Part shown: piece after piece, positions 2,565-12,582 of the stretch | Position numbering within the stretch: the first letter of the stretch is position 1 | How the letters are laid out: the number at the start of each line of letters is the position of its first letter | From: a virus | Direction: 5' to 3' (one strand) | Length of the DNA: 25,537 bases | IMG/VR virus record: IMGVR_UViG_3300047546_002947 | Location: 1-25,537 of that record | The notes under the pieces: model-generated | What the model saw: only the letters and a program-made list of their open reading frames with translations | The model's database searches: none | Told to the model about the DNA's origin: nothing | Position numbers and translations under genes: made by a program

Positions 2565-3068
2565 TTAAGTATACTTTTGATCATGTGCTTTACCAATACC
2601 ATAATCACCATCATACTTCTTTAGTGATTGTGACTTGAAGAGGAGGAACTGTCCGACTCTTGTTCCTTTTTTGATTCTTGCAAAAGATTTGACATGTAAC
2701 GCGCCAGCCATAACACCATTATAACCGGAATCATATAAACCACTAGTGATATAAAGACCGTTACGATTAAGAGTAGATCTAGTGATGACCCATCCAGCTT
2801 CATCAGCTCCAACATTGATTATGTTCTCCATAACAATTTCATATGTGCCTGGTGGAAGATTCCAATAACCTTGACCATCTGTAGGTACTTCATGGGATCC
2901 TCGATGAATCTTTACTTCTTTTCCATCTTCTTCACCAATAACAAAAGCACCTTCATTCATTTGAAAAATCTTACCTACCCGAAGATCAACAGCATTAGGT
3001 TGAATATCTTCATCTTTAAGATTTGTAAGGGTTGATTGTGTATCTTGTGCTGCAACATGAATCATCAT
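2565..3068 (-). CDS. dUTPase / dCTP deaminase superfamily protein
   Basis: Nucleotide-pool enzyme of the trimeric dUTPase/dCTP deaminase fold, 167 residues. Visible motifs are AVDLRVG (about 26-32, motif 1 Asp28), TRSTLNRNGL (96-105, motif 2) and SGLYDSGYNG (109-118, motif 3 with Asp113, as in dUTPases). ARIKKGTRVGQFLLF is motif 4, and the tail YGIGKAHDQKY occupies the place of the flexible C-terminal motif. The Glu that deaminates dCTP in true Dcd proteins appears to be Ala at the aligned position, so hydrolysis of dUTP (or another dNTP) is more likely than deamination. ATG 3068 overlaps the amidotransferase stop by 3 nt; a second ATG at 3065 is also possible. It shares the operon with dpdA and queC. 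Confidence 0.8.
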   Translation of the reverse strand: MMIHVAAQDTQSTLTNLKDEDIQPNAVDLRVGKIFQMNEGAFVIGEEDGKEVKIHRGSHEVPTDGQGYWNLPPGTYEIVMENIINVGADEAGWVITRSTLNRNGLYITSGLYDSGYNGVMAGALHVKSFARIKKGTRVGQFLLFKSQSLKKYDGDYGIGKAHDQKYT

Positions 3069-3691
3069 TTCACTTCATCCATAAAAAAATAAGGGTTTTC
3101 AACTGTATTAAATTTGCCAATTTTGTGTATACCTGAACCTAGTAGAAACTCCCATATAGTATTAGGTTCAAGAGATAACGATCCTTCAAACTTAGTTGAA
3201 GAGATGTTATGATCTGCGTCTATAAAGAGAGGAGAGATCTCATTACGAAATAATTGCAAACTACCATTACCAAAATATACACAAGAGAAGGTACCATCAA
3301 TATCATCTAGATTACCGGTACTAAGATATTTATGCAAGATCAAAAAAGTATCCCATGAGTTGTCAATATTATATTCTTTCATTGCGTTCTTAACCCAATG
3401 ATCTTTAATAATACCATTATGCCATAACCATGCACCTTGTGTATATGCAGGATGTACAGATTCAATAGTTTTATTATCTGTAGTAGGTGCTTGCATATGC
3501 GCAATACAATATGCACCTTCCGGTATCTTAATTTGATCCAAAGGTATTTCACCTAGACCCTTCGTGACGGTAATATCGTTGGTATCGGGATAATAGTAAC
3601 TATAAGAAAATGAGTGCTGACCTCTATAACGATTAAGTTCAGCTAACTCTACTAACTTATCTTTGCTAAAAGAACCAAAAATACTACACAT
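3065..3691 (-). CDS. Free-standing class II glutamine amidotransferase (Gat)
   Basis: Ntn-hydrolase glutaminase domain of 208 residues without a synthetase partner domain. After removal of Met1, Cys2 would be the catalytic nucleophile (MCSIFGSF). NRYRGQHSFS (20-29) matches the RG substrate-binding loop, IAHMQAPT (63-70) the second loop, and WHNGIIKDH (90-98) carries the Asn-Gly oxyanion residues. LDDIDGTFSCVYF matches the usual L-x-G-x-F-A strand. The start codon overlaps the queC stop by one base (TGATG). In some Crenarchaeota and in Escherichia phage 9g a Gat domain is fused to QueC and has been tied to archaeosine formation from preQ0. Here the two halves are separate but coupled, so ammonia delivery to a deazaguanine nitrile is inferred. 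Confidence 0.85.
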   Translation of the reverse strand: MCSIFGSFSKDKLVELAELNRYRGQHSFSYSYYYPDTNDITVTKGLGEIPLDQIKIPEGAYCIAHMQAPTTDNKTIESVHPAYTQGAWLWHNGIIKDHWVKNAMKEYNIDNSWDTFLILHKYLSTGNLDDIDGTFSCVYFGNGSLQLFRNEISPLFIDADHNISSTKFEGSLSLEPNTIWEFLLGSGIHKIGKFNTVENPYFFMDEVK

Positions 3692-4458
3692 CAGAGATCA
3701 TAAACCGTTACAGGTAAAAATTTATCCCAATCAATAGGAGGGTTATAAGGAATTGGATCTTTCACTCTTGCTTTAATAAAATTGGCAATTCGTTCAGAGC
3801 ATGAAGGACATTTTCCACAAGAATGACCATTTTCATCTGGATTATAACATGTAAGCGTATAATCAAAACGAACATTACCTAATTCCATTGCAATCATAAT
3901 CTCATCATACTTTGACAGCAAACTAAAAGGTGCTTCTAGTTTAACTTTATGAGTACGATTTTGATCAGCTACAGCATTCATAGCATCAACAAAACGTTGA
4001 GATGTATCCCAATATCCATACTCATCATGAACTTGAAGACCAGTAAAGACATGAGAAGCTTTATTTGATTCAGCAAATGAAAATGCTAATGCATTGAGAA
4101 TCATATTGCGGAATGGTACATAAGTTTTAGGTTGTGGATCTCCAAGAACATCTTTGATGGTTGGCATAGCCACGTCAGTACCACCAATGTTAGCACTAAC
4201 ATCCTTTACAATATCACCAAGAATTCCAAGATCCAATACTTTATGAGCAATACCAAGATGTTGACACGTCTTAGCAGCCATCTCAAGTTCTTTTATTTGT
4301 TTTTGTCCATAATTATATGAAAGAGCATAAACGCGTTCTTTACCATACTTAGCAACAAGAATGTAAGTCATAATTGTTGAATCAAGACCACCAGAAAGAA
4401 CAGATACTACATTATGTTCTGTATCAGGTAACTTACTTAGAGCTTCGTTCATATTCAT
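3691..4458 (-). CDS. queC: 7-cyano-7-deazaguanine (preQ0) synthase QueC
   Basis: ATP-dependent conversion of 7-carboxy-7-deazaguanine and ammonia to preQ0. The PP-loop SGGLDS is at residues 22-27, SYNYGQK follows at about 48-54, and the PFRNMILNALA segment lies near 115-125. A four-cysteine zinc site is formed by C204, C214, C217 and C220 (the CGKCPSC cluster). The 255-residue length is normal for QueC. ATG 4458 is chosen because AGGAAG lies 8-10 nt upstream; an in-frame TTG at 4464 is too close to that box and another ATG is at 4452. The gene overlaps the upstream DUF3310 gene by 26 nt and is followed with a 1-nt overlap by the amidotransferase. Confidence 0.95.
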   Translation of the reverse strand: MNMNEALSKLPDTEHNVVSVLSGGLDSTIMTYILVAKYGKERVYALSYNYGQKQIKELEMAAKTCQHLGIAHKVLDLGILGDIVKDVSANIGGTDVAMPTIKDVLGDPQPKTYVPFRNMILNALAFSFAESNKASHVFTGLQVHDEYGYWDTSQRFVDAMNAVADQNRTHKVKLEAPFSLLSKYDEIMIAMELGNVRFDYTLTCYNPDENGHSCGKCPSCSERIANFIKARVKDPIPYNPPIDWDKFLPVTVYDL

Positions 4459-4780
4459 TTGCAATTTCTTCCTGTAAATACCACATAGCTTTATGTAAAT
4501 CTTCTAAACGTTTTGTAGGATCTTTTTTACCAGCTCGCGCAACATACTTAACTACATTACCAAGAGAAAAACTTAGATCCCAGGCTCTTATAACTTTAAT
4601 AACCTCAAAAGGATTATCTTTGCCACCATAATGAGCAGGATGATTGACTGCTTCCTTCTTGCGACCCAATTCTCTGTGTACAGGTTGTTGTACTATCTGA
4701 GGATCAGGTTGCGGAGGAGTATCTGATTTTTGTTGTGCAGCTGTAATTACTGCACCTGGTCCATTTAATTTCAATGCCAT
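4433..4780 (-). CDS. DUF3310 family protein, copy A
   Basis: 115 residues with a disordered Pro/Gln-rich N-terminus (to about 40) and a C-terminal DUF3310 domain. The motifs are VNHPAHYGG (about 45-53), FEVIKVIRAWDLSFSLGNVV and KYVARAGKKD, then an amphipathic helix EDLHKAMWYLQEEI. T7 gp1.7, a nucleotide kinase acting on dGMP and dTMP, contains a DUF3310-type region, so nucleotide-pool work is plausible but unproven. It lies between the shorter paralogue and queC in the dpdA operon. Its last 26 bases overlap queC and contain the queC ribosome-binding site. Confidence 0.8.
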   Translation of the reverse strand: MALKLNGPGAVITAAQQKSDTPPQPDPQIVQQPVHRELGRKKEAVNHPAHYGGKDNPFEVIKVIRAWDLSFSLGNVVKYVARAGKKDPTKRLEDLHKAMWYLQEEIANEYERSSK

Positions 4781-4787
4781 CGTAACC

Positions 4788-5039
4788 TCACGATTTGGTA
4801 GTTTGATCGCGCATCAATCTAATCCGATCAACTTCTCTTTCAATATACCACTTTGCCTTTTCAAGATCTTCAATCTCTTTACTAAGAGCGTCATATCCTT
4901 GTTCAGCCTTCTTACCAGCTCTAAGAATATACTTTACTGCATTACCTCTAGAAAAATTCAACCCAAAGATTTCAATGACATCAATGGCTTGTAATTTTCC
5001 TACACCTTTATAATGATTAGGATTAATCTTGTCTTCCAT
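4788..5039 (-). CDS. DUF3310 family protein, copy B
   Basis: 83 residues that are almost entirely DUF3310 domain: INPNHYKGVGKLQAIDVIEIF, then NFSRGNAVKYILRAGKKAEQG and a long helix EIEDLEKAKWYIEREVDRIR. It is a diverged tandem paralogue of the next gene downstream, sharing the N-H-Y/A-H-Y-x-G, GN-x-VKY and RAGKK signatures but lacking the disordered N-terminus. The start is set by AAGGAA 9 nt upstream, which lies inside the 3' end of dpdA (17-nt overlap), so translation is coupled to dpdA. The biochemical activity is unknown; a nucleotide kinase role by analogy with T7 gp1.7 is a guess. Confidence 0.8.
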   Translation of the reverse strand: MEDKINPNHYKGVGKLQAIDVIEIFGLNFSRGNAVKYILRAGKKAEQGYDALSKEIEDLEKAKWYIEREVDRIRLMRDQTTKS

Positions 5040-5874
5040 TTAAAATTTCCTTAAACATATTAACATTATGATATAGCAATTCCATATCTATATCACTCTT
5101 TTTCATGTGATAAACTTTATCAAATGTTGCATTAGGTTTACCGATGACACCAGCTGTTGAATATTTGTTACCATCAATAGCTGCCATAACAGGATTGGAA
5201 GTGTCAACAGAATAGACCCAATCATATTCTTTGTAGTAAGCAAATTCGCCAGCCCACCATGTTCCAAGTAGATGGTGCTTACGATTCTTATCAATTACTC
5301 TAGATTCATGCATACGACGAAGTAGTTTAATTCTTTCATTTGCCTGAACAATAGGATCTTTCTCGGCCCAAGAATATACGAAGGGAATGCCAATCATATA
5401 AATTTGATCAACACCTTCTGGAGTATTTGGAAATAAACCTGATTTAATTCTAAAATCTCTAAATTCTTGGTAACATTCAATCATCTCTTCTGGAGATGAT
5501 CCTTGAATGACTGCCATACCATAATGAGCAGTCTCAGGATAAGATTTTAGAAATTCAAATGTTTGATCTAATGTTGCTTTCTTATTACCAAGAGTATCAG
5601 GAAGAATTACAACAGCAGGTGTGATCTTCTGACACCATGCATAGAGCATTTCATTACTTAATGATGCTCCTAATTCAAAACAACTATTATCAAGATAAAC
5701 AGCGTGTGAGGTACCATTAAAGGCACCGGTATTCATGATGTCTACTACTGCATTATAATATTCAGGATCTTCTATGAGTTTATGTAACAACACATAGGTA
5801 TAGTCATTGATCTTAAAATGATCTTCTGACTTCATAAGAGATAGAGGTGTTTCGTGGGCAACTAATTTTTTCAT
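5023..5874 (-). CDS. dpdA: DpdA-like DNA 7-deazaguanine transglycosylase
   Basis: A 283-residue member of the TGT fold that in phages exchanges guanine in DNA for a 7-deazaguanine base. Residues matching catalytic positions of tRNA-guanine transglycosylase are visible: YLDNSCFELG (Asp62, base-binding, like the DSGGFQ loop), VVILPDTLGNK (Asp93) and VYSVDTSNP (Asp224, candidate nucleophile). The C-terminal zinc cysteines of bacterial TGT are absent, as in short phage DpdA proteins. It leads an operon with two DUF3310 genes, queC, gat and a dUTPase-like gene, which argues strongly for DNA rather than tRNA as substrate. A sigma70-like promoter and a hairpin lie just upstream. Which deazaguanine it inserts cannot be told from sequence. 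Confidence 0.87.
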   Translation of the reverse strand: MKKLVAHETPLSLMKSEDHFKINDYTYVLLHKLIEDPEYYNAVVDIMNTGAFNGTSHAVYLDNSCFELGASLSNEMLYAWCQKITPAVVILPDTLGNKKATLDQTFEFLKSYPETAHYGMAVIQGSSPEEMIECYQEFRDFRIKSGLFPNTPEGVDQIYMIGIPFVYSWAEKDPIVQANERIKLLRRMHESRVIDKNRKHHLLGTWWAGEFAYYKEYDWVYSVDTSNPVMAAIDGNKYSTAGVIGKPNATFDKVYHMKKSDIDMELLYHNVNMFKEILNGRQD

Positions 5875-5905
5875 TCACAATTCCATAATAAAGTATCAAT
5901 GATTA

Positions 5906-5934
5906 AATATAATGAAGGTTGATAATTAAATCAA
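5906..5934 (-). promoter_or_regulatory. Sigma70-like promoter for the dpdA operon
   Basis: On the - strand TTGATT (5934-5929) and TATATT (5911-5906) are separated by exactly 17 nt, with dpdA starting 32 nt further on. The -35 box lies over the stop codon of the upstream gene and inside a 9-bp hairpin. The two hexamers are 4-5/6 matches to consensus; start of transcription is not shown by sequence alone. Confidence 0.5.
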
Positions 5935-5938
5935 CCTT
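5915..5938 (-). terminator. Stem-loop at the end of the 224-aa gene
   Basis: Perfect 9-bp inverted repeat: AAGGTTGAT (5915-5923) and ATCAACCTT (5930-5938), with a 6-nt AATTAA loop. It covers the stop codon of the upstream leftward gene. On the - strand it is followed by CATTATATTT, only a weak T-tract, so it may be a poor terminator, an mRNA 3'-end stabiliser or a protein site over the dpdA promoter. Confidence 0.45.
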
Positions 5939-6605
5939 TATATTTTTCACCTTTTGCACGAGCCTTTGCTGCTGCCTTTTGGCCGGCTTCTACTCGCTTT
6001 TGAAACTCTGCTTTACCGAGACGTTTACGACCAGCTGCGGCTGCAATTGCACCAGCTGCTTTATAATCTACACCAGCTGACTTTGCAATCTTCTTTACGA
6101 ATACATCTTTACCAGCTGCATCTTTTGGACCCTCATTGAGGATTTCTTCTTCTAAATGTTCTTTAAATGTTTTCATTTTATTTTTCTCAATTGCATTTTT
6201 AAGTGAACCAAGTCTTTGTTTTTGTGCGTAGTTATGAGTACCTGGTTTGGATTTCATATTCCAAAAAGATGCTCTTTCTGATCTAGGTTTATTAGCATCA
6301 GGATCTACCTTACTTCTGCCAAACATCTTAGCAATCTTTTCGGGTGAATGCCAATCGCCAACAATATCCCATTTCTTACGAATATTATAATTATATGTAT
6401 GAAATTCTTTTCCGTCTGAATGTCTTTTCAGATTGATTTTATACCTATTGATTCCAATTCTTTTATTACCGGTAACTGTATAAGAGGTAGGCTTATCATG
6501 TTCAATCTTATCATTACCATCATAAACAAAAGATCCAGCTGGAGCTTTGAGCTTAATATCTTTAAGAACTTGTCCACCAGAGCTTACAAGAGGAACGTAA
6601 ACCAT
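5931..6605 (-). CDS. Basic protein with internal capsid-targeting-like peptide; candidate head-internal protein
   Basis: 224 residues, no recognised family. The N-terminal ~140 residues look globular and are rich in Lys, Arg and aromatic residues (VPLVSSGG, DKPTSYTVTGNKRIGINRYK). At residue 144 comes MKTFKEHLEEEILNEG, which resembles the capsid-targeting leader of T4 internal proteins (MKTYQEFIAE, from memory) and contains LNE followed by Gly, the type of site cut by the T4 prohead protease. The last 80 residues are alanine/lysine-rich and histone-like (KAAAKARAKGEKYKG). The gene is the third of a set with TAATG/TGATG overlaps behind a late-promoter-like octamer. A role inside the capsid is inference; a separately translated C-terminal product is possible. 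Confidence 0.6.
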   Translation of the reverse strand: MVYVPLVSSGGQVLKDIKLKAPAGSFVYDGNDKIEHDKPTSYTVTGNKRIGINRYKINLKRHSDGKEFHTYNYNIRKKWDIVGDWHSPEKIAKMFGRSKVDPDANKPRSERASFWNMKSKPGTHNYAQKQRLGSLKNAIEKNKMKTFKEHLEEEILNEGPKDAAGKDVFVKKIAKSAGVDYKAAGAIAAAAGRKRLGKAEFQKRVEAGQKAAAKARAKGEKYKG

Positions 6606-7021
6606 TACTTATTCTTTCTACCTTCTAACTCTGAACCAAGCTTGTTTACATATTCAGTATGAGTCTTTGGTGTAGATTTAAATTGAAAGCCATACTTACG
6701 ATTCTTGAGATCTTTGTGAACAGCCTCAAGATCTTTTGTTGATACATTCTCAAGACCACCTGAATCTGCTTTTTCATTTTCAGTATATTTGTCTTTAGTA
6801 GAAGCAAGATGATCGGCATGCTTATTAAACATAGCACGTACAGGTCCACTATAACCAAGACCAGTCATTCTCATCCAATTAAGAACGCGACCATGATTCT
6901 CTTTAGTTGGATTCTTTTTAAGAAAACCAAGAACATGATGAATCTTCTCATCAGGTTCTTTTATCTTCTTTGCTTGAACTCTAGTCAACTGCCAGTGAAT
7001 GTTAAATTTATTAACAGCCAT
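6605..7021 (-). CDS. Unknown basic protein, 138 aa
   Basis: Not recognised. It is highly charged, beginning MAVNKFNIHWQLTRVQAKKI, with helical character, a segment GRVLNWMRMTGLGYSGPVRAMF (about 45-66), then acidic and Ser/Thr-rich, and a lysine-rich end (LGSELEGRKNK). No signal, membrane segment or catalytic motif is seen. ATG 7021 is preferred to ATG 7024 because AGGAG stands 7 nt before it and it overlaps the preceding stop as TGATG. It is sandwiched between two proteins with capsid-targeting-like peptides, so a virion-internal or packaged role is possible. Its own start lacks that peptide. Confidence 0.65.
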   Translation of the reverse strand: MAVNKFNIHWQLTRVQAKKIKEPDEKIHHVLGFLKKNPTKENHGRVLNWMRMTGLGYSGPVRAMFNKHADHLASTKDKYTENEKADSGGLENVSTKDLEAVHKDLKNRKYGFQFKSTPKTHTEYVNKLGSELEGRKNK

Positions 7022-7380
7022 CATATAGCTCCTGTCTTGTAACGATAATCTTCTTTATCGAAAGGTTCACCAAGCATATTACGCCAATGAATGCGAACAT
7101 CCTTGCGAAGCTCATCTGTCTCTTTTTGACCCGCTGTCTTACCTGTTCTATGAACTGATCCTGTCAATACATTAAGAACACGACGAACAGCTAAAGGACT
7201 CTTCTTATTCTTATTGAAATAAGAACGAAGAGTTGAGACATTCTTTTTATGATTGTGAACCCAATTGCCGATTAGAGACTTACGAATGCCTTGCCACTCT
7301 GGATCATCAACAACTTTCTTGATGTCCATCCCCTTAACCTTACGAGCATCTTCCATAAGATGTTGTTCAAAAGTAAGCAT
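7021..7380 (-). CDS. Basic protein with N-terminal capsid-targeting-like peptide
   Basis: 119 residues with no recognised domain. The start MLTFEQHLMEDARKVKG closely follows the layout of the T4 internal protein leader (MKTYQEFIAEA, then basic residues, from memory). The mature part would be strongly basic (NWVHNHKKNVSTLRSYFNKNKK), as expected for a protein bound to packaged DNA. ATG 7380 is chosen over ATG 7392: the upstream ATG is part of an ATGGAGAGA box in which GGAGAG is the ribosome-binding site. A late-promoter-like octamer lies 22 nt before the start. Cleavage after the glutamate at residue 10 is inferred, not shown. Confidence 0.68.
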   Translation of the reverse strand: MLTFEQHLMEDARKVKGMDIKKVVDDPEWQGIRKSLIGNWVHNHKKNVSTLRSYFNKNKKSPLAVRRVLNVLTGSVHRTGKTAGQKETDELRKDVRIHWRNMLGEPFDKEDYRYKTGAI

Positions 7381-7401
7381 ATGTCTCTCCATTTGATATA
7401 A

Positions 7402-7409
7402 TATTTATT
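7402..7409 (-). promoter_or_regulatory. Candidate T4-type late promoter
   Basis: The - strand reads AATAAATA, 7 of 8 bases of the T4 late -10 octamer TATAAATA that gp55-bound RNA polymerase recognises. It sits 22 nt before the start of the first putative head-internal gene. A TATAAT overlaps it, so a weak sigma70 promoter is an alternative, although no good -35 box is present. Confidence 0.4.
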
Positions 7410-7426
7410 ATACCAATCTTTTGAAA

Positions 7427-7885
7427 TTAATGCCACTCGTAATAAATTGAATGATTACAATAGTTTAGGAAATAATCCCTATCGGGATATAGATTAGGCT
7501 TTTGTAATATACGTTCTTTTATGCGTTTTATGACAGTCTTATATGCCTCTTCGTTAGGAATATAGTCATTATACCATATACCCGGAAAAGATGTCTGTAT
7601 CTTTTCTAATCTTTTTTTAAAATTTTCAGGATCTGTTTTGATCCCTCTGCTATTCATATTATCATAAAGGTCTCTAAATCTTTTTTCAAGATAATAACCT
7701 TTATCATAAAAGAACTTTACATGTCCACCATCAAGACTAAACTTTTCTGGTATCTTAACAGTATGCAAGGATCCCTTGCTAGCTGTTCTTTGCATAGGAA
7801 AAATAATTTGTGTTAGTTCTTTATATTCAGCAACAAGGTGTCTAGCTGTAAGAAGATCAGGATTTACTAGATTTATTCTTGTCAT
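7427..7885 (-). CDS. denV: Pyrimidine-dimer DNA glycosylase, DenV (T4 endonuclease V)
   Basis: Base-excision repair enzyme that cuts the glycosidic bond of UV-induced pyrimidine dimers and the DNA backbone. The start MTRINLVNPDLL...HLVAEYKEL aligns without gaps to T4 DenV (MTRINL...HLMAEYREL, from memory). Thr2 is the amine nucleophile after Met removal, His16 is conserved and Glu23 is the catalytic acid. GGHVKFFYDKGYYLEKR (53-69) matches GAGHVTFFYDK of T4. At 152 residues it is slightly longer than T4's 138, mainly from a middle insertion. It is the last gene of the early operon starting at 9442 and overlaps the previous gene by 29 nt. Confidence 0.93.
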   Translation of the reverse strand: MTRINLVNPDLLTARHLVAEYKELTQIIFPMQRTASKGSLHTVKIPEKFSLDGGHVKFFYDKGYYLEKRFRDLYDNMNSRGIKTDPENFKKRLEKIQTSFPGIWYNDYIPNEEAYKTVIKRIKERILQKPNLYPDRDYFLNYCNHSIYYEWH

Positions 7886-8267
7886 TCTTCTTTACAATGT
7901 TGAGAGGAGGATTATAAACCTCAACAAGTCTTGATTCTACTGATTCATGATTAATATATTCACTATCAAATAGTTGCTCGCGAATTGAATCTCTTGTCAA
8001 AGCATAAACAAACACTAAATTGCTGTCAACCATTTCTTTAAGAATGTCGGCTTTAAAGTGAACAAACTTATCTAATCTTTTATTAATCCAACGTTGTTGA
8101 AGTGTGTTGCTATAAGATCCAATGTATAATAATTTATCATTTACATAAACGGCATATACACCACCAACAGAGTTAAACAATTCTTCGTTGATTAAATGAA
8201 AAAATTCTTTATTAAAAGAAAAAGCTTTCTTAAAAACAAGACCATTAATTAGAACACTGTCTAACAT
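7857..8267 (-). CDS. GIY-YIG endonuclease, resembles T4 endonuclease II (DenA)
   Basis: 136 residues with the GIY-YIG nuclease core: GVYAVY (36-41), LLYIGS (46-51), Arg59, the catalytic glutamate E111 in ESRLVEVYNPPLN, and N123. T4 DenA is also 136 residues and, from memory, ends with a comparable glutamate and NPPWNIQHKK, close to NPPLNIVKK here. DenA nicks and cuts unmodified host DNA at the start of T4 host shut-off. A DenA-like role fits the early operon position, but a homing nuclease of the Seg type is an alternative; there is no separate DNA-binding domain, which disfavours it. Overlaps both neighbours (TGATG upstream). Confidence 0.72.
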   Translation of the reverse strand: MLDSVLINGLVFKKAFSFNKEFFHLINEELFNSVGGVYAVYVNDKLLYIGSYSNTLQQRWINKRLDKFVHFKADILKEMVDSNLVFVYALTRDSIREQLFDSEYINHESVESRLVEVYNPPLNIVKKNDKNKSSKS

Positions 8268-8692
8268 CAGAAAGTCTCCAAGAGATTACCGTTACCAGCA
8301 ACGCGTTCTGCTTCTTTAAATGACATACCGTTTTTATTCATGAGATCAATTATTTGTAAAAACTCTTCATAATTCCACGTTCTCATTTCTGTAATGCCGG
8401 AGAGTTGTTTAGGTTCAAACCAATTATGAAATCTACCACCTTTAGCTATAGTATTCATAATCAATTGTTCAATACGTTCTGCTTCTTCTCTATTAGGAGC
8501 CCAAACTGAATGCATGATTTTAATATCATCAAATGTTTCACTAATAGGATTAGCCTCATCTGATCCTGTATACATCAAACGTTTCATAGCATCTGATGAA
8601 GCTGTAATACCAACCTTCATTACTGTTTTAGGTAAACCAGAAACAGCTGTAGAACGTTTCAACTTAGCAAGATAAATTTTATACGGTTGCAT
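8267..8692 (-). CDS. Putative T5orf172/MUG113-like (GIY-YIG-related) protein
   Basis: 141 residues. The start MQPYKIYLAKLKRSTAVSGL, then MKVGITASSDAMKRLMY, resembles the Y-L...K-V/I-G-I-T...R pattern of T5orf172/MUG113 domains, which are distant GIY-YIG nucleases. WAPNREEAERIEQLIMNTI and WFEPKQLSGITEMRTW continue it, with candidate glutamates in the last segment. This is a motif-level guess. ATG 8692 overlaps the preceding stop as TGATG and is preferred to the upstream GTG 8695. It lies directly before the DenA-like gene, so two related nuclease folds may stand side by side. Confidence 0.55.
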   Translation of the reverse strand: MQPYKIYLAKLKRSTAVSGLPKTVMKVGITASSDAMKRLMYTGSDEANPISETFDDIKIMHSVWAPNREEAERIEQLIMNTIAKGGRFHNWFEPKQLSGITEMRTWNYEEFLQIIDLMNKNGMSFKEAERVAGNGNLLETF

Positions 8693-9228
8693 CACTTGAT
8701 TCCATATTCTTTTTTAACTGCATGAGATTTAAAATCGACATCATCAATCAATTTAATCTTAGCCTTTTTATACATATCAACCCAATTATCTTTCATTATA
8801 TCAAAATCTTTTTGATATTCTTTGAGCCTAATATTTTCTTCTAATGTAGTTTTAACAATAAACAAATTCTCAAGCCAGAATTTAAAAAATTCTTTCTTAG
8901 TAGGAATTTTATTTTTATTCAGAAGATACTTTGCAATATTACGATATGTGATTGGATGTTCTAAAGATACACTTTCAGCCTTAGAAACTGATTTACCTTT
9001 GTATTTTTTTATTTTCGATTTAAAAGCATTAACACTAATCAATTTTGAATAGTAACCATTAATACCTGCTTCACCTATAGAACTTTCAACTTGTCTAATA
9101 TGATAGGTTTTGACCTTTTCATCAGAAGTTGATTTATAGACCTTGCGATGAAATTTAAATTCTTCATATACAGAATTGTAAATTTCTTTTTTAACAGGAT
9201 TGAGTGTGCCACCTTTTGTTCTAGCCAT
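8692..9228 (-). CDS. Unknown basic protein, 178 aa, early operon
   Basis: Not recognised. It is lysine-rich (starts MARTKGGTLNPVKKEIYNSV) with predicted helices throughout, a basic centre (FKSKIKKYKGKSVSKAES) and a segment HPITYRNIAKYLLNKNKIPTK that could be a helix-turn-helix-like or nuclease-associated unit. The high Lys content suggests nucleic acid binding. It begins one base after the previous stop codon and overlaps the next gene (TGATG), so it belongs to the five-gene operon from 9442 to 7427 ending in denV. Confidence 0.65.
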   Translation of the reverse strand: MARTKGGTLNPVKKEIYNSVYEEFKFHRKVYKSTSDEKVKTYHIRQVESSIGEAGINGYYSKLISVNAFKSKIKKYKGKSVSKAESVSLEHPITYRNIAKYLLNKNKIPTKKEFFKFWLENLFIVKTTLEENIRLKEYQKDFDIMKDNWVDMYKKAKIKLIDDVDFKSHAVKKEYGIK

Positions 9229-9229
9229 A

Positions 9230-9442
9230 TCACTTCACCTTCAATCCTTCACCTGACAACATATAATTGGAAGCAATCTTATCTAATTGTATACCAGATA
9301 ATGTTTTTGATTTCAAGATATTTAATTTTTTGGTCTCATTAGTGCCATGAGATTCATTTACCAAAATCTCAAAAGCACTTTGTTTTTCATCTCGAGACTT
9401 AGCATTCCAAACTGCATTAACAAATTGTGTCAAATCACGCAT
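9230..9442 (-). CDS. Unknown small protein, 70 aa, first gene of the denV early operon
   Basis: Not recognised. It starts MRDLTQFVNAVWNAKSRDEK and is mixed helical, with no cysteine, membrane segment or signal. A strong AAGGAG lies 8 nt before the ATG. It is the promoter-proximal gene behind the early-type promoter at 9470-9499, a position often used in T4-like phages for small host-directed proteins; that role is inferred from position only. Confidence 0.7.
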   Translation of the reverse strand: MRDLTQFVNAVWNAKSRDEKQSAFEILVNESHGTNETKKLNILKSKTLSGIQLDKIASNYMLSGEGLKVK

Positions 9443-9469
9443 AGTTGTCTCCTTCCAAACAATAACTAT

Positions 9470-9499
9470 ATAATACGTTATTTTCAGAAAAAAAGCAAC
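9470..9499 (-). promoter_or_regulatory. Early-type promoter P1 (denV operon)
   Basis: On the - strand -35 TTGCTT (9498-9493), a 17-nt spacer CTGAAAATAACG-ended and rich in T, and -10 TATTAT (9475-9470). A second T-run lies upstream of the -35. The same 30-nt layout recurs at 22811-22840 and 22953-22982 with near-identical sequence (GTTGCT, T-run, GAAAATA, TATTAT), so it is a promoter family of this phage. It lies 28 nt before the first gene of the operon. Confidence 0.75.
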
Positions 9500-9511
9500 C
9501 GGAAAAAAAGT

Positions 9512-9532
9512 GTAATGATTTCAATTAGTTAC
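9512..9532 (+). repeat. Copy 4 of a 21-bp palindrome-like repeat upstream of P1
   Basis: GTAATGATTTCAATTAGTTAC matches three copies at 22852-22937. Here the outer arms are GTAA/TTAC instead of CTAA/TTAG, so both arms changed together. It ends 12 nt upstream of the P1 core and overlaps the last codons of folE. Confidence 0.6.
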
Positions 9533-9540
9533 ATTGAAAT
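9518..9540 (-). terminator. Possible terminator hairpin at folE end
   Basis: An 8-bp perfect stem ATTTCAAT/ATTGAAAT (9518-9525 and 9533-9540) with a 7-nt loop holding the folE stop codon. On the - strand a run of seven T follows after about 8 nt. It is AT-only in most pairs, so termination is uncertain; it overlaps the 21-bp repeat. Confidence 0.4.
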
Positions 9541-10274
9541 TTCTGCATCTTTATATTATTAAAGAACTCTTCACGTGCAGATTGTGTATAAAACAAGCCA
9601 TGAACAACGGTTGTTTGTGTCGTAGAATTAGAAGCCATGACACCACGATTTTCACAGCAACCATGCTTTGCTTCGATATAAACAGCTACGTTTTCAGACT
9701 TAGTAGCTTTCATGATTGAGGTTGCAATATCATTACACAATTCTTCTTGTAGAGTTCCACGACGAGCACAATGTTGAGCGATACGAATATACTTACTAAG
9801 ACCAATAACATGTGTTGATGGAATAACACCAATATAAGCAGTACCAGTAACAGGCTGGTGATGATGAGAACACATAGACTTAAGTTCAGCACGAACAACT
9901 AACATACCTGCATAAGGTTTTGTTCCATGTGAACCATCATTTGGGAAGGAAGTTACTTCTGGTTCATCATGATACCGGCCATACATCAATTCATTAATAT
10001 ACATCTTAGCTAAACGTTTAGCTGTTCCCTTTGAATTAGGATCAGTTTCAACATCAATGATCAATGAACGAAGAACACCATCAAACTTTTCTGTTACCTC
10101 GTCAATGAGTAACTCACGATCCCCATCATCCATAAATTTGCTAATGTTATCATTGGCATGAAAACGAGCATTTGCATCTTTTATCTTTCTTTTAATTTTC
10201 ATTGAAACAGGTTGGTAGCTGACAGCTGTTTCAATTTGTGTTGGCTCTACAATAATATCTTTCACTTTACTCAT
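9525..10274 (-). CDS. folE: GTP cyclohydrolase I, FolE
   Basis: Converts GTP to 7,8-dihydroneopterin triphosphate, the first step to 7-deazaguanine. The tail-end motif NSKGTAKRLAKMYINELMYG (about 80-99), SMCSHHHQPVTGTAYIGVIP with the zinc and catalytic residues C135 and H137-H138, GLSKYIRIA, RRGTLQEEL and IEAKHGCCENRGV are all present and in order. The 249-residue length includes a roughly 50-residue N-terminal extension compared with the compact bacterial enzyme. The ATGA overlap with queD fixes the start and couples the two. The gene ends the queE-DUF6065-ORF-queD-folE run. Confidence 0.96.
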   Translation of the reverse strand: MSKVKDIIVEPTQIETAVSYQPVSMKIKRKIKDANARFHANDNISKFMDDGDRELLIDEVTEKFDGVLRSLIIDVETDPNSKGTAKRLAKMYINELMYGRYHDEPEVTSFPNDGSHGTKPYAGMLVVRAELKSMCSHHHQPVTGTAYIGVIPSTHVIGLSKYIRIAQHCARRGTLQEELCNDIATSIMKATKSENVAVYIEAKHGCCENRGVMASNSTTQTTVVHGLFYTQSAREEFFNNIKMQKFQCN

Positions 10275-10768
10275 GCGAACAAATCCTCATTCCATTCTCT
10301 ATGACCTTCACGGTATGCCATATTAGCCAATGTTTCACGAACTTCAACTCTGAAACACCATAGGCGTTCGGCTTCACCTGGTCCCCACATGTCTGGTATG
10401 TAAACACCATTAACATACTTATATAACATATCTGCTAAACTTTCGCAACCTAATTTTGGAAGAATAGTAAGCTTAGCTAAATTTTTCGATTCAAGAAGTT
10501 TATATGTTTCCATTTCTGGATCATCTTGTGCTACAAGTAATGTATGGTCAAATTGATCCTCTAAAACCTTCTTCAATTCTTTCAATCCACCATAATCAGC
10601 TGCCCAATTACGAACATCAAGATCATCAGTTCCAAAATAAAATTTCATTGAAAATGCATATCCATGAATTAGATTGCAATGACTATCAGCTCTCCATTGA
10701 CGATATGCAACTGGAAATGCGTTGTGATATTCTTTTGTGCTTACATATTTGTAGGTTCTAGGTTGCAT
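10271..10768 (-). CDS. queD: 6-carboxytetrahydropterin synthase-like protein, QueD
   Basis: T-fold enzyme expected to make 6-carboxy-5,6,7,8-tetrahydropterin from dihydroneopterin triphosphate. Catalytic Cys31, Asp74-His75 (FDHTLL) and a late glutamate (VEVRETLANM) match QueD. The classic zinc histidines are altered: the AAH motif is VAY (Tyr22) and HGH is HGY (H35, Tyr37), while an extra His30 precedes the cysteine. The segment YRQWRADSHCNLIHGYAFS belongs to a recognisable QueD subtype, so activity may be kept with other ligands. 165 residues is longer than E. coli QueD (about 120). AGGA lies 6 nt upstream of the ATG, and the 3' end overlaps folE. Confidence 0.88.
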   Translation of the reverse strand: MQPRTYKYVSTKEYHNAFPVAYRQWRADSHCNLIHGYAFSMKFYFGTDDLDVRNWAADYGGLKELKKVLEDQFDHTLLVAQDDPEMETYKLLESKNLAKLTILPKLGCESLADMLYKYVNGVYIPDMWGPGEAERLWCFRVEVRETLANMAYREGHREWNEDLFA

Positions 10769-10769
10769 T

Positions 10770-10985
10770 TTAGGTCCTCATATAAGTGTGTATTCTACGA
10801 TCGATATATTCATCGAGATGTTTTTTAAATTTATGTTTTGCAGAAGGTATAATAACATTTCTAATATTATCTGCTTTACGCCATTCTCCTTCATTATTAT
10901 GATGCCATTCATCATCCAGGGCATCAATAAGAGATTCTAATGACGAAATTACATCTTCAATAATTTCACTACTTTTTCTTTCCAT
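10770..10985 (-). CDS. Unknown acidic-helical protein, 71 aa, inside the que operon
   Basis: Not recognised. It is wholly helical in appearance: an acidic first half (SSEIIEDVISSLESLIDALDDEWHH) and a basic second half (SAKHKFKKHLDEYIDRRIHTY). No metal or membrane motif is seen, although several His and Trp residues are present. Its ATG overlaps the DUF6065 stop as TAATG and its stop is just before the queD ribosome-binding site. Its position between deazaguanine genes suggests an accessory role, without other support. Confidence 0.68.
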   Translation of the reverse strand: MERKSSEIIEDVISSLESLIDALDDEWHHNNEGEWRKADNIRNVIIPSAKHKFKKHLDEYIDRRIHTYMRT

Positions 10986-11704
10986 TATTTTTCTATACTT
11001 CCTGTAAGTTTAATCTTTGTTTGATGATCTACTGGGCATTTGACTCCGTCAGGATATCTACCTTGAAAATATTCTTTTTGCCAATCATTTTTTCTATCAG
11101 GATTTTTATTAAAAGATGTTCTACTTTCATGAAAAATTTTATATTGTGTTCTCATCTCATCATTTTCAGATAACATCTTATGTTCTAATTCAAATGATTC
11201 AGATAATTTTCTCTCAACTGGAAAAATATAACAGATAGGATCTGTTGTATTAAATTCAACAAACCCTGGTCTTAATATTCTCCAGTTCATTGTAAATGAA
11301 TAAGGAGCCCAATCTGATTCATATATTCCAGAAAGAGGCCATACATTGGAAATAAAATGATTTGGTGCACCTGTAATATATAGGTTGTAGCCAGGTGGTG
11401 TTTTAAATAAGTAATGTATATGAAAAGTTAATACACCACTACCAAATATAGATGTTGCAATTCCACCTTCCTCAATCATAGTAATTGCTTCTTTATCAGC
11501 ATTACCGTTCCATTCGCATCTAACCCTCTTCTTAGGAAAGATAGACCAACCATGTTGGTTAGCAATAGTTAGAGGTAAACATCTATAAGCAAATTTTTCA
11601 AATGTTTGATCCATCCATGTTCTAGTAGGTGAACCTTGAACTATAGTTACAGGAGGTGGAAATTGCTCATGAACCTGATAGGCGGTGATTTTTAATTCAC
11701 TCAT
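10985..11704 (-). CDS. DUF6065-like protein in the que operon
   Basis: 239 residues from ATG 11704, which overlaps the queE stop (TAATG); an upstream in-frame start would run 57 nt into queE and is not needed. The sequence MSELKITAYQVHEQFPPP, TWMDQTFEKFAYRCLPLTIANQHGW (about 29-53), WNGNADKE, GSGVLTFHIHYLFKTPPGYNLY and FTMNWRILRPGFVEF recalls the DUF6065 family as remembered; no enzymatic role is known to me. Conserved-looking Asp, Arg, His and Trp residues suggest an enzyme, possibly cupin-like. It sits between queE and queD, so a role in base modification is a hypothesis. Confidence 0.72.
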   Translation of the reverse strand: MSELKITAYQVHEQFPPPVTIVQGSPTRTWMDQTFEKFAYRCLPLTIANQHGWSIFPKKRVRCEWNGNADKEAITMIEEGGIATSIFGSGVLTFHIHYLFKTPPGYNLYITGAPNHFISNVWPLSGIYESDWAPYSFTMNWRILRPGFVEFNTTDPICYIFPVERKLSESFELEHKMLSENDEMRTQYKIFHESRTSFNKNPDRKNDWQKEYFQGRYPDGVKCPVDHQTKIKLTGSIEK

Positions 11705-12582
11705 TAAGTTCCCCAGGCATTTTTCCACAATTGAACCTGAAGACGTGGTGTATAACGCCAACCATGTTTCATAGCAAGATCAGCAACCCACTTCTCGTTT
11801 GTATCATATACTTTTGTAGTACCGCCTGCTGGCATTAGATATACAGGAATGTTATACCCGTCTAATAGTTTATTATATTCCTTAACTGCACGAACTACAT
11901 CATAGTAATCATCAGCATCAGATACTACCCATTTAAAGTATCCTTTAGCCCAAGGACGATCAAAGCCCTCTAATTTATCAAAATAACCTTGAACAATTTC
12001 TGGTCTGATCGCTTCTTCCCATTTCTCACCGGATGATGGTAGTTTGGATGAGATAGAAAACATAACTTCTACACCAGCAAAGTTTTCACTCTCTCTCATA
12101 TATTCTGCTAGATCATCTTTAAGTTCTTGAGTACCATTTGTTTCAAATGTGAGATTGGTCAATCCCATATCACGTTTTGCAATTTCTTCAAACAAAGCAA
12201 TATATGAACGTTGCCAACCAAGTAACGGTTCACCACCCGTAATAATCAAATGTTTATCAGGTCCAAATTTACCTTCAGGAAGAAGCTCTTGCATCTTATC
12301 TACAATTGCTTCTACAGTAAGCATTGGAGAGAGATGTTTGAATCGAGGATCCCAAGATGCATAAGAATCACAACCAGTATGAACTAAAGGTAGATCTTCA
12401 TATTTTTCAAAACTATCTGGATCAATGTTCATACGTTCTTCTGATAGTTGTCCACGAGGCATACCGAAACCGGCACACATAAAATTACATCCAAATGTGC
12501 GAAGAAAAATACTTGGTGTTCCAAGATATTGACCCTCACCTTGTAAGGAATAAAATAACTCAGCTACTTTGATCTTTGACAT
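11704..12582 (-). CDS. queE: 7-carboxy-7-deazaguanine synthase QueE (radical SAM)
   Basis: Radical SAM enzyme that rearranges 6-carboxytetrahydropterin into 7-carboxy-7-deazaguanine. It opens with ELFYSLQGEGQYLGTPSIFLRTFGCNF, the QueE signature, and has TGGEPLL (about 114-120) and ETNGT for SAM and substrate binding. The cluster cysteines are unusual: C32-x3-C36, then a 34-residue insertion, then C71 in GCDSYASW, where C-D-S replaces the C-D-T of the usual CxxxCxxC. The 292-residue length reflects this insertion and others. It overlaps the preceding 90-aa gene by 23 nt and the next by 1 nt. Substrates come from FolE and QueD encoded downstream. Confidence 0.92.
   Translation of the reverse strand: MSKIKVAELFYSLQGEGQYLGTPSIFLRTFGCNFMCAGFGMPRGQLSEERMNIDPDSFEKYEDLPLVHTGCDSYASWDPRFKHLSPMLTVEAIVDKMQELLPEGKFGPDKHLIITGGEPLLGWQRSYIALFEEIAKRDMGLTNLTFETNGTQELKDDLAEYMRESENFAGVEVMFSISSKLPSSGEKWEEAIRPEIVQGYFDKLEGFDRPWAKGYFKWVVSDADDYYDVVRAVKEYNKLLDGYNIPVYLMPAGGTTKVYDTNEKWVADLAMKHGWRYTPRLQVQLWKNAWGT

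Follow-up and report, generated by a model that had tools for sequence, protein, structure and literature searches.

A DpdA-like transglycosylase and a proposed separate amidotransferase partner of QueC in a predicted 7-deazaguanine DNA modification locus of an uncultured T4-like phage

Introduction

Pathways that place 7-deazaguanines in phage DNA are known, but only a minority of environmental phages have DNA of known chemistry. The DpdA1 phages CAjan, Rosebush and 9g (dPreQ0 or dG+ in DNA) combine FolE, QueD, QueE and QueC with a TGT-fold transglycosylase, as does the locus described here. In JenP2 (9g-type), a single 471-aa gene holds the amidotransferase and QueC parts. In a Schizotequatrovirus-type cluster (Vibrio phages KVP40, nt-1, and D480) and in Pseudomonas phage pf16, QueC is directly followed by a separate amidotransferase (Gat) gene of the kind found in our locus, and the transglycosylase is DpdA2; in Vibrio phage D480 DpdA2, QueF, QueC, and Gat are consecutive. 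Phages pf16 and D480 add QueF and nt-1 adds an ArcS-type protein (a match to PF17884), whereas our module has neither.

The DNA of nt-1, which has the split pair and is QueF-less, was reported to contain dPreQ0, dADG, and dG+ in decreasing order (PMC6884629). Because its modification is very low (dPreQ0 at 0.11% of G) and because of its ArcS-type protein, nt-1 is a weak guide. In Vibrio phage 6E351A, which has QueF in its 7-deazaguanine cluster, dPreQ1 reportedly amounts to 15% of dG (PMC12028318). The sole cultured relatives found for the transglycosylase of our locus come from CP220 (Firehammervirus) and the Flavobacterium phage immuto. Neither record gave a Gat match, unlike our locus; that of immuto also includes QueF and a gene annotated as formyltransferase. 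We take these two transglycosylases to be the "DpdA3" of Cui et al. 2023; a literature word search for DpdA3 returned nothing relevant.

Results

Gene content of the locus

The window is the whole stretch of viral DNA analysed, 25,537 nucleotides (IMG/VR record IMGVR_UViG_3300047546_002947, positions 1 to 25,537); its positions 1-22357 are 100% identical to part of a 50,075-base contig. The initial annotation had placed folE, queD, queE, queC, and a DpdA-like gene within 3065-12582, and all five are open frames there on the minus strand. The features are as follows.

2565..3068, minus strand: DCD, dCTP-deaminase/dUTPase-like gene (PF22769, 2.1e-14); overlaps gat; linkage in relatives
3065..3691, minus strand: Gat, class II glutamine amidotransferase (PHROG phrog_12378, function unknown, 4.7e-53; fold; Cys2)
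3691..4464, minus strand: QueC, ATP-dependent preQ0 synthase (PF06508, E 5.7e-53; TIGR00364, 169.2 vs. cut-off 150.3 bits)
4433..5039, minus strand: two DUF3310 genes (PF11753), between dpdA and queC
5023..5874, minus strand: predicted DpdA-like DNA-guanine transglycosylase (tblastn, predicted fold, conserved residues)
5875..5930, minus strand: non-coding sequence ahead of dpdA; conserved in part among the five relatives compared; hairpin present in the window
9525..10274, minus strand: FolE, GTP cyclohydrolase I (PF01227, 6.2e-39); 4-base overlap with queD
10271..10768, minus strand: QueD, 6-carboxytetrahydropterin synthase (PF01242, 6.6e-14; PHROG QueD, 5.2e-35)
11704..12582, minus strand: QueE, 7-carboxy-7-deazaguanine synthase, radical SAM (PHROG phrog_2076, E 2.7e-49)

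FolE, QueD, and QueE stay below the NCBIfam cut-offs, with family matches in Pfam or PHROG (PHROG for QueE). The QueE match to TIGR03365 (5.3e-13) is split over two stretches, the protein has an insert of ∼34 residues between the second and third cluster cysteines, and its score of 28.1 bits falls slightly short of the 29.5 bits that Pfam requires for Radical_SAM.

The earlier view that the five genes make up a full preQ0-to-DNA set holds in that the GTP-to-preQ0 genes are complete and a protein of TGT/DpdA fold is present, but the list was one gene short. The overlooked gat gene forms the real left boundary of the 3065-12582 interval, and since Gat pairs with QueC, the five named genes do not by themselves settle the product. 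Independence from the host had also been inferred; the host would still supply GTP, SAM, glutamine, ATP, and reductants.

From queE through the gene after gat the genes form a single co-directional run with intergenic gaps of at most 82 bases, and relatives in IMG/VR keep the pathway genes linked, though not always in the same order. The initial annotation had split the pathway over two operons, and the stretch before dpdA is a possible second transcription start. A division into operons from a promoter/terminator scan was dropped, as there was no excess over shuffled sequence (50 promoter-like sites found vs. 57.1 expected).

The DpdA-like transglycosylase

Pfam and NCBIfam profile searches gave no match to the DpdA-like protein. 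Its family profile showed no significant sequence-profile similarity to DpdA1 (JenP2), and an hhalign comparison with a DpdA2 (locus L015) covered 25 columns at E 0.0047 and probability 7.5, which is not significant. BLAST against nt-1 DpdA2 gave a best E of 2.6 over 8 residues, and the family profile, when run against PDB sequences, returned two weak unrelated matches. Identification from sequence alone was set aside because these routes gave nothing significant, and the identity was settled only by fold.

The predicted model (pLDDT 81) gave 50 listed Foldseek matches, all of them tRNA-guanine transglycosylases (best E 2e-7). VIA-align scored it at Z 17.3 against the DNA preQ0 insertase 7ui4 (rmsd 3.4, 242 aligned) and at Z 17.7 against the archaeosine TGT 1iq8. 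By its model the protein has the TGT barrel fold, and it is this predicted fold only that links it to DpdA1 and DpdA2. D62, D93, Q124-G125, H201-L-L-G204, D224-T-S, and P228 are identical in 92/92 relatives; by motif, Asp62, Asp93, and Asp224 may match the known catalytic residues of this family, which has two catalytic aspartates. In tblastn the protein aligned at 5e-33 with an immuto gene that bears the annotation DNA guanine transglycosylase (31.6% identity over 98% of the query) and also with the CP220 transglycosylase gene (30.5% over 86%). The target would be DNA, rather than tRNA, and the base inserted would be preQ0.

A tree was built from 92 of 124 DpdA loci kept at 97% identity, 7 of the 92 being without a QueF call. 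The clade that includes the window protein has 27 rows, every one from uncultured contigs, and a long branch (100% SH-aLRT) parts this clade from a sister clade that holds CP220 and immuto. The relatives were the best 80 of 566 in one search and the best 80 of 121 in another, so the sample favours close relatives.

A split Gat-QueC pair

The last base of queC is the first base of gat, and the two are separate frames, not one polypeptide. Gat has, as modelled, a class II glutaminase domain: fold comparison gives its best Z with PurF (20.2) and reaches 19.2 with GlmS (Z falls from 11.7 to 5.1 where the amidotransferase-type rows end), the family profile matches GlmS at 4.8e-4, and the predicted nucleophile Cys2 is invariant in 15/15 sequences.

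Window QueC is 61% identical to the KVP40 protein and 51% to that of pf16. It keeps SGGLDST, VPFRN, and the zinc cysteines (spaced Cx9C vs. Cx8C in E. coli), whereas YPDC has become YWDT and YxQxH has become YGQKQ; it differs at Cys134, His39, and Pro132. Residues Y35, R99, Y131, and Y189, essential in E. coli QueC (PMC13329287), are all present.

Among 95 distinct Gat genes with QueC in the locus, fewer than 150 bases lie between the two frames in 83, and QueC precedes Gat in 91. Where Gat is adjacent, Thr replaces Cys134 in 85/86 QueC proteins and Gln replaces His39 in 82/86; His39 is kept in four Gat-associated proteins, and nt-1 and D480 retain Cys134 (YWDC) despite Gat. QueC without Gat keeps both residues in 18/19 cases, the exception (L007) being a truncated locus that ends 2 bases after queC; L092, L110, L120, and L127 extend fewer than 400 bases past queC, so that a Gat there could escape notice. 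Both residues are also missing from 5/5 QueC proteins that exceed 400 aa and were treated as Gat-QueC fusions. In the comparison across lineages, Gat-less meant not fused and with no Gat in the annotated flanks. Length alone decided the unannotated Pa-V and Ep032, the latter being counted as fused; the BSTP8 protein, annotated as amidotransferase/QueC, was placed with the Gat-less ones, its length being only 223 aa. The archaeal and phage fused proteins have the same two parts in one polypeptide, and the fused and split lineages alike have changed Cys134, and His39 in most, whereas the window has two genes with QueC first. The residue pattern comprises one independent pair on starred branches and two on all branches, too few for a statistical test, and with so few lineages shared ancestry could explain it. 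We read QueC and Gat as a two-subunit, glutamine-fed preQ0 synthase in which Gat would feed QueC. No title or abstract among those listed in the literature searches describes the split Gat, and we claim no priority.

The slot between dpdA and queC

Neither QueF nor a formyltransferase lies between dpdA and queC in any of the 27 window-clade rows (a count that excludes the partial loci L010 and L196), whereas 34 of 37 sister-clade rows carry QueF there. The counts are limited to rows in which a single locus holds both genes and dpdA precedes queC (27/27 of the window clade, 37/65 of the sister clade). The two DUF3310 genes fill the slot where sister-clade relatives carry formyltransferase and QueF. 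No QueF over the cut-off, ArcS, or dCMP hydroxymethylase was found in the 50-kb contig or in two ∼150-kb relatives. ArcS was weighed as another way to complete the pathway, but its profile PF17884 matched neither the window nor the 50-kb contig, and it gave no hit in five related contigs or in pf16 and CP220.

Gat occurs together with QueF in 19/24 DpdA2 loci and in 28/44 sister-clade loci, many of which were found through Gat. In loci found through DpdA, it is present in 4/10 sister-clade loci with QueF, in 0/2 without, and in 16/20 of the QueF-less window-clade loci, where the other 4/20 show no Gat despite enough room. The tally counts distinct QueC sequences and includes L010 and L196, placed in the window clade and absent from the tree. 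Since Gat is also found with QueF, its use as a simple marker of dG+ is weakened, in favour of a QueC helper. Its higher frequency without QueF in the DpdA-found loci would also suit a Gat acting on preQ0 itself.

Phage group and the hydroxymethylcytosine question

The DNA polymerase is closest to those of T4-like cyanophages (∼50% identity), an affinity that, judged by sequence, indicates the phage group and not the host. In a scan of genome contigs, an Acidimicrobiaceae MAG yielded the single contig found (20.6 kb), which is probably a binned phage contig.

It had been suggested that 7-deazaguanine stands in place of the T4 hydroxymethylcytosine. The PF00303 search detects gene 42 in T4 (positive control) and found nothing in the 50-kb contig, a 36.8-kb relative, the two ∼150-kb relatives, or S-SM2, a cyanophage in culture that lacks gene 42 in its gp43-uvsX region as well. 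As the hydroxymethylase gene is also missing in S-SM2, its absence is more widespread and is not tied to the 7-deazaguanine pathway. We therefore rejected the replacement as framed.

Discussion

We propose that FolE, QueD, and QueE would convert GTP to 7-carboxy-7-deazaguanine, that the separate Gat subunit would hydrolyse glutamine and pass ammonia to QueC, and that the pair would thus form preQ0. The DpdA-like transglycosylase would then replace guanine in phage DNA by preQ0, so that dPreQ0 would be the main product, and the modified guanine may shield the DNA from host nucleases. We put the probability of this reading as a whole at about 55%. Our data show the gene content, predicted folds, conserved linkage, conserved residues, and the lack of QueF between dpdA and queC; the feeding of QueC by Gat, DNA rather than tRNA as the target, preQ0 as the inserted base, and protection of the DNA are what we infer from them. 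dPreQ0 is our best guess for the main product, with dG+ and dADG as rivals.

A rather unlikely alternative is that the Gat-QueC pair makes the archaeosine base G+, so that virion DNA holds mainly dG+. In E. coli the fused Gat-QueC of 9g together with its DpdA was reported to give dG+ at 18 and 9% of G in two plasmid pairings, and 9g DpdA alone at most 0.3% dPreQ0 (PMC6884629); a fused Gat-QueC that makes dG+ would predict dG+ in our phage too. That no QueF was found to divert preQ0, and that Gat is commoner where QueF is absent in DpdA-selected loci, fits as well. However, the split Gat accompanies QueF in many loci, and G+ formation there would branch off from the main route. In nt-1, which has the split pair, dPreQ0 reportedly exceeds dG+ about fivefold (PMC6884629), and the resemblance between the split Gat and the Gat domain of JenP2 is remote (hhalign E 4.5e-4, probability 33%).

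Less probable again is an amide product: QueC might stop at the amide intermediate, or the phage might insert the amide, with dADG as the outcome and perhaps all guanines affected, as happens in Campylobacter Firehammervirus. ADG is an intermediate made by QueC (PMC13329287), and in CP220, with a DpdA of the sister clade, 100% of dG was reported as dADG (PMC8306585), but the CP220 DpdA lies beyond the long branch at the low identity given above, and CP220 has a QueC that keeps the cysteine (FPDC) and no Gat match. We consider it very improbable that the genes serve tRNA, with host queuosine boosted and the transglycosylase acting on RNA. The DpdA fold does fit tRNA-guanine transglycosylases and 7ui4 equally well; against this, the sister-clade phage CP220 was reported to have 7-deazaguanine in DNA (PMC8306585), preQ0 genes accompany the window-type DpdA in relatives, and the module is without QueF, a weak argument as the host could supply it.

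The preferred dPreQ0 pathway is of a kind already known, here with a DpdA branch seen only in uncultured viruses and with a gat gene next to queC. The search of cultured phages found no member of this DpdA branch, which is now tied to a defined gene set, and Gat, labelled hypothetical in most cultured records among the matches listed (KVP40, nt-1, and pf16 included), becomes a candidate second subunit. More tentatively, it is possible that a widespread uncultured T4-like lineage replaces much or all of its guanine with a nitrile- or amide-type 7-deazaguanine through an unrecognised DpdA branch, the split Gat-QueC with its rebuilt active site supplying the base. Relatives may swap the contents between folE and queC (DpdA alone, DpdA with formyltransferase and QueF, or DpdA2 with QueF) and so change their DNA chemistry. 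The gene content of one slot should then predict the base in phage DNA.

Gene content of the locus

The locus derives from a T4-like phage represented by a 25.5-kb virus record, and a 50,075-base IMG/VR contig contains the same sequence, with identity spanning window bases 1-22357. The genes concerned are, in reading order:

12582-11704, minus strand: queE (family profiles)
10768-10271, minus strand: queD (family profiles)
10274-9525, minus strand: folE (family profiles)
5874-5023, minus strand: dpdA (predicted fold)
4464-3691, minus strand: queC (family profiles)
3691-3065, minus strand: gat, class II glutamine amidotransferase (PHROG match, family profile, predicted fold)
3068-2565, minus strand: dCTP-deaminase/dUTPase-like gene

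Matches to family profiles supported the folE, queD, queE and queC genes named in the initial annotation, and the DpdA-like transglycosylase that it proposed was borne out by a predicted fold matching tRNA-guanine transglycosylases and the solved DNA preQ0 insertase DpdA (7ui4). The locus is very probably a known kind of system for 7-deazaguanine DNA modification. The shared direction of the genes and the short gaps between them do not demonstrate the two operons that had been suggested.

A DUF6065 gene (10985-11761) separates queD from queE in the window and the identical contig; it had no match in the close relatives L007 and L008. A pyrimidine-dimer DNA glycosylase gene (PF03013, the family of T4 DenV; 7427-7885) lies between folE and dpdA. 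Upstream of dpdA is a partly conserved non-coding stretch (5875-5930), in which GTTGATTTAATT is kept in the window and 5/5 relatives compared and a hairpin occurs in some of these six sequences. QueE carries an insert of ∼34 residues between the second and third cysteines of its iron-sulphur motif. This spacing was 34, 36 or 38 in 72 of 104 frames counted (redundant loci included; 25 without a pattern match), whereas it is 2 in ordinary phage QueE, CAjan and JenP2 being examples.

DpdA and the dpdA-queC interval

DpdA (283 residues) had no match in Pfam or NCBIfam, and only 18 relatives, from Campylobacter and Flavobacterium, were found among 50,697 phage records (30.5-31.6% identity). Its AlphaFold2 model (pLDDT 81, pTM 0.83) matched tRNA-guanine transglycosylases (Foldseek E 2e-7), with Z-scores of 17.7 to the archaeosine TGT and 17.3 to 7ui4. 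Sequence comparison reached neither DpdA1 nor DpdA2. Asp62, Asp93, Gln124, Gly125, His201-Leu-Leu-Gly204 and Asp224-Thr-Ser were invariant in all 92 aligned relatives.

A tree of these 92 distinct relatives, out of 124 loci, was built by a quick method with SH-aLRT as the only support measure. It separated 27 rows with the window type from 65 rows with CP220 and the Flavobacterium phage immuto, on long branches with 100% support. Residues separating the clades include positions 162, 164, 205 and 208, which by motif would lie at the base pocket. QueF was called absent in 27/27 window-clade rows and present in 51 of the 58 sister-clade rows having a call; its state requires a minimum of 6 changes on the tree.

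The contents of the dpdA-queC interval track the DpdA branch. Slot genes were named by Pfam (QueF, PF14819/PF14489; formyltransferase, PF00551). All 27 window-clade intervals lack both genes (median 219 bases), whereas QueF occupies 34 of the 37 sister-clade intervals with both flanking genes in that order (median 1978 bases), and 32 of those 34 also hold the formyltransferase. Among 24 DpdA2 loci, including nt-1 and pf16 and with most of the others found via Gat, QueF was present in 19 and formyltransferase in 0. A search of the 50-kb contig and a 36.8-kb relative found no QueF; two ∼150-kb relatives gave sub-threshold QueF hits only, at positions computed to fall within their folE genes.

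Many sister-clade loci have a small kinase-like AAA gene (PF13521) between formyltransferase and QueF (e.g., L028:4960-5499). The dCTP-deaminase/dUTPase-like gene accompanied Gat in 24/28 window-clade, 25/30 sister-clade and 0/24 DpdA2 loci. Locus L229, whose contig was assigned by binning to an Acidimicrobiaceae MAG, holds a window-clade module of FolE, DpdA, DUF3310, QueC, Gat and the dCTP-deaminase/dUTPase-like protein.

Gat and the QueC active site

Gat (208 residues) adjoins QueC and matched only a PHROG of unknown function and, faintly, an NCBIfam GlmS model (E 0.035). Its family profile matched GlmS chains at E 4.8e-4, and its model (pLDDT 90.6) gave Z-scores of 20.2 to PurF and 19.2 to GlmS. 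Cys2 is invariant. The same gene directly follows queC in KVP40-group Vibrio phages and Pseudomonas phage pf16. Of the 95 distinct Gat genes that share a locus with QueC, 83 are <150 bases away from it and 91 are downstream of it. The family, phrog_12378, was matched in one of 14 control genomes, Sulfolobus acidocaldarius; we suspect this to be that organism's Gat-QueC.

QueC motif positions were taken from PMC13329287, which describes four E. coli residues as essential; the window QueC keeps all four. Where Gat is present, Thr replaces Cys134 in 85/86 QueC sequences and Gln replaces His39 in 82/86; where it is absent, both residues are kept in 18/19, the exception being a truncated locus. A wider, partly overlapping set (n = 48) gave Cys134 kept in 24/24 and His39 in 23/24 Gat-less sequences, both lost in 5/5 judged fused to Gat, and losses of 18/19 and 16/19, respectively, in split pairs. 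Phages nt-1 and D480 are exceptions, with Gat present and Cys134 kept. The simplest reading is that ammonia would be supplied to QueC through Gat, so that residues serving free ammonia may be free to change. We offer this as a hypothesis and not as a statistical result, because the tree provides at most two independent contrasts. Gat-less QueC from L086, L093, L094, L096, L103, L107 and immuto (L046) have YPDC and His39 and lack the zinc cysteines (NTSYKP...SDYKS).

Relation to T4 hydroxymethylcytosine

The proposal that the pathway replaces T4 hydroxymethylcytosine was not upheld. PF00303 detected gene 42 in T4, used as a control, and found none in the 50-kb contig, the 36.8-kb relative, the two ∼150-kb contigs, pf16 or cyanophage S-SM2; the single nt-1 match (E 1e-80) was taken for thymidylate synthase. 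In S-SM2, gp43 is followed by one small gene and then uvsX, and in the 50-kb contig, too, the gene after gp43 was judged to be uvsX on visual inspection. The phage polymerase is closest to those of T4-like cyanophages (about 50% identity). Together, these observations give no sign that the modified base displaced hydroxymethylcytosine in this lineage. Between the polymerase and clamp-loader regions, the 50-kb contig (L036:15196-19996) encodes a CHASE2-adenylate/guanylate cyclase, a FecR-domain protein and a protein whose repeats resemble curlin by eye, representing either unusual phage content or an assembly join.

Predicted product

According to Hutinet et al. (PMC6884629), the plain gene set yields dPreQ0 and the fused Gat-QueC of phage 9g yields dG+, which would favour Gat as a marker of dG+. 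Among DpdA-found loci, Gat occurs in 16/20 of the window clade vs. 4/10 QueF-bearing and 0/2 QueF-less sister-clade loci, in line with that idea. It is weakened, however, by Gat occurring alongside QueF in pf16, in Vibrio phage D480 (gene order DpdA2-QueF-QueC-Gat) and, in the tally as a whole, in 19 loci with DpdA2 and 28 from the sister clade. Phage nt-1, which has a split Gat like the window plus an ArcS-type DUF5591 protein, was reported to contain 232 dPreQ0, 72 dADG and 44 dG+ per million nucleotides (PMC6884629). Two further papers report 15% of dG modified in Vibrio phage 6E351A, the mass agreeing with dPreQ1 and QueF belonging to the cluster (PMC12028318), and complete dADG in CP220 of the sister clade (PMC8306585).

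The window variant, which pairs a split Gat-QueC with a DpdA branch encountered in this analysis only in uncultured contigs, is absent among the cultured phage records searched. Since no QueF or ArcS was found, dPreQ0 is predicted as its most probable product, followed by dG+ and then dADG.
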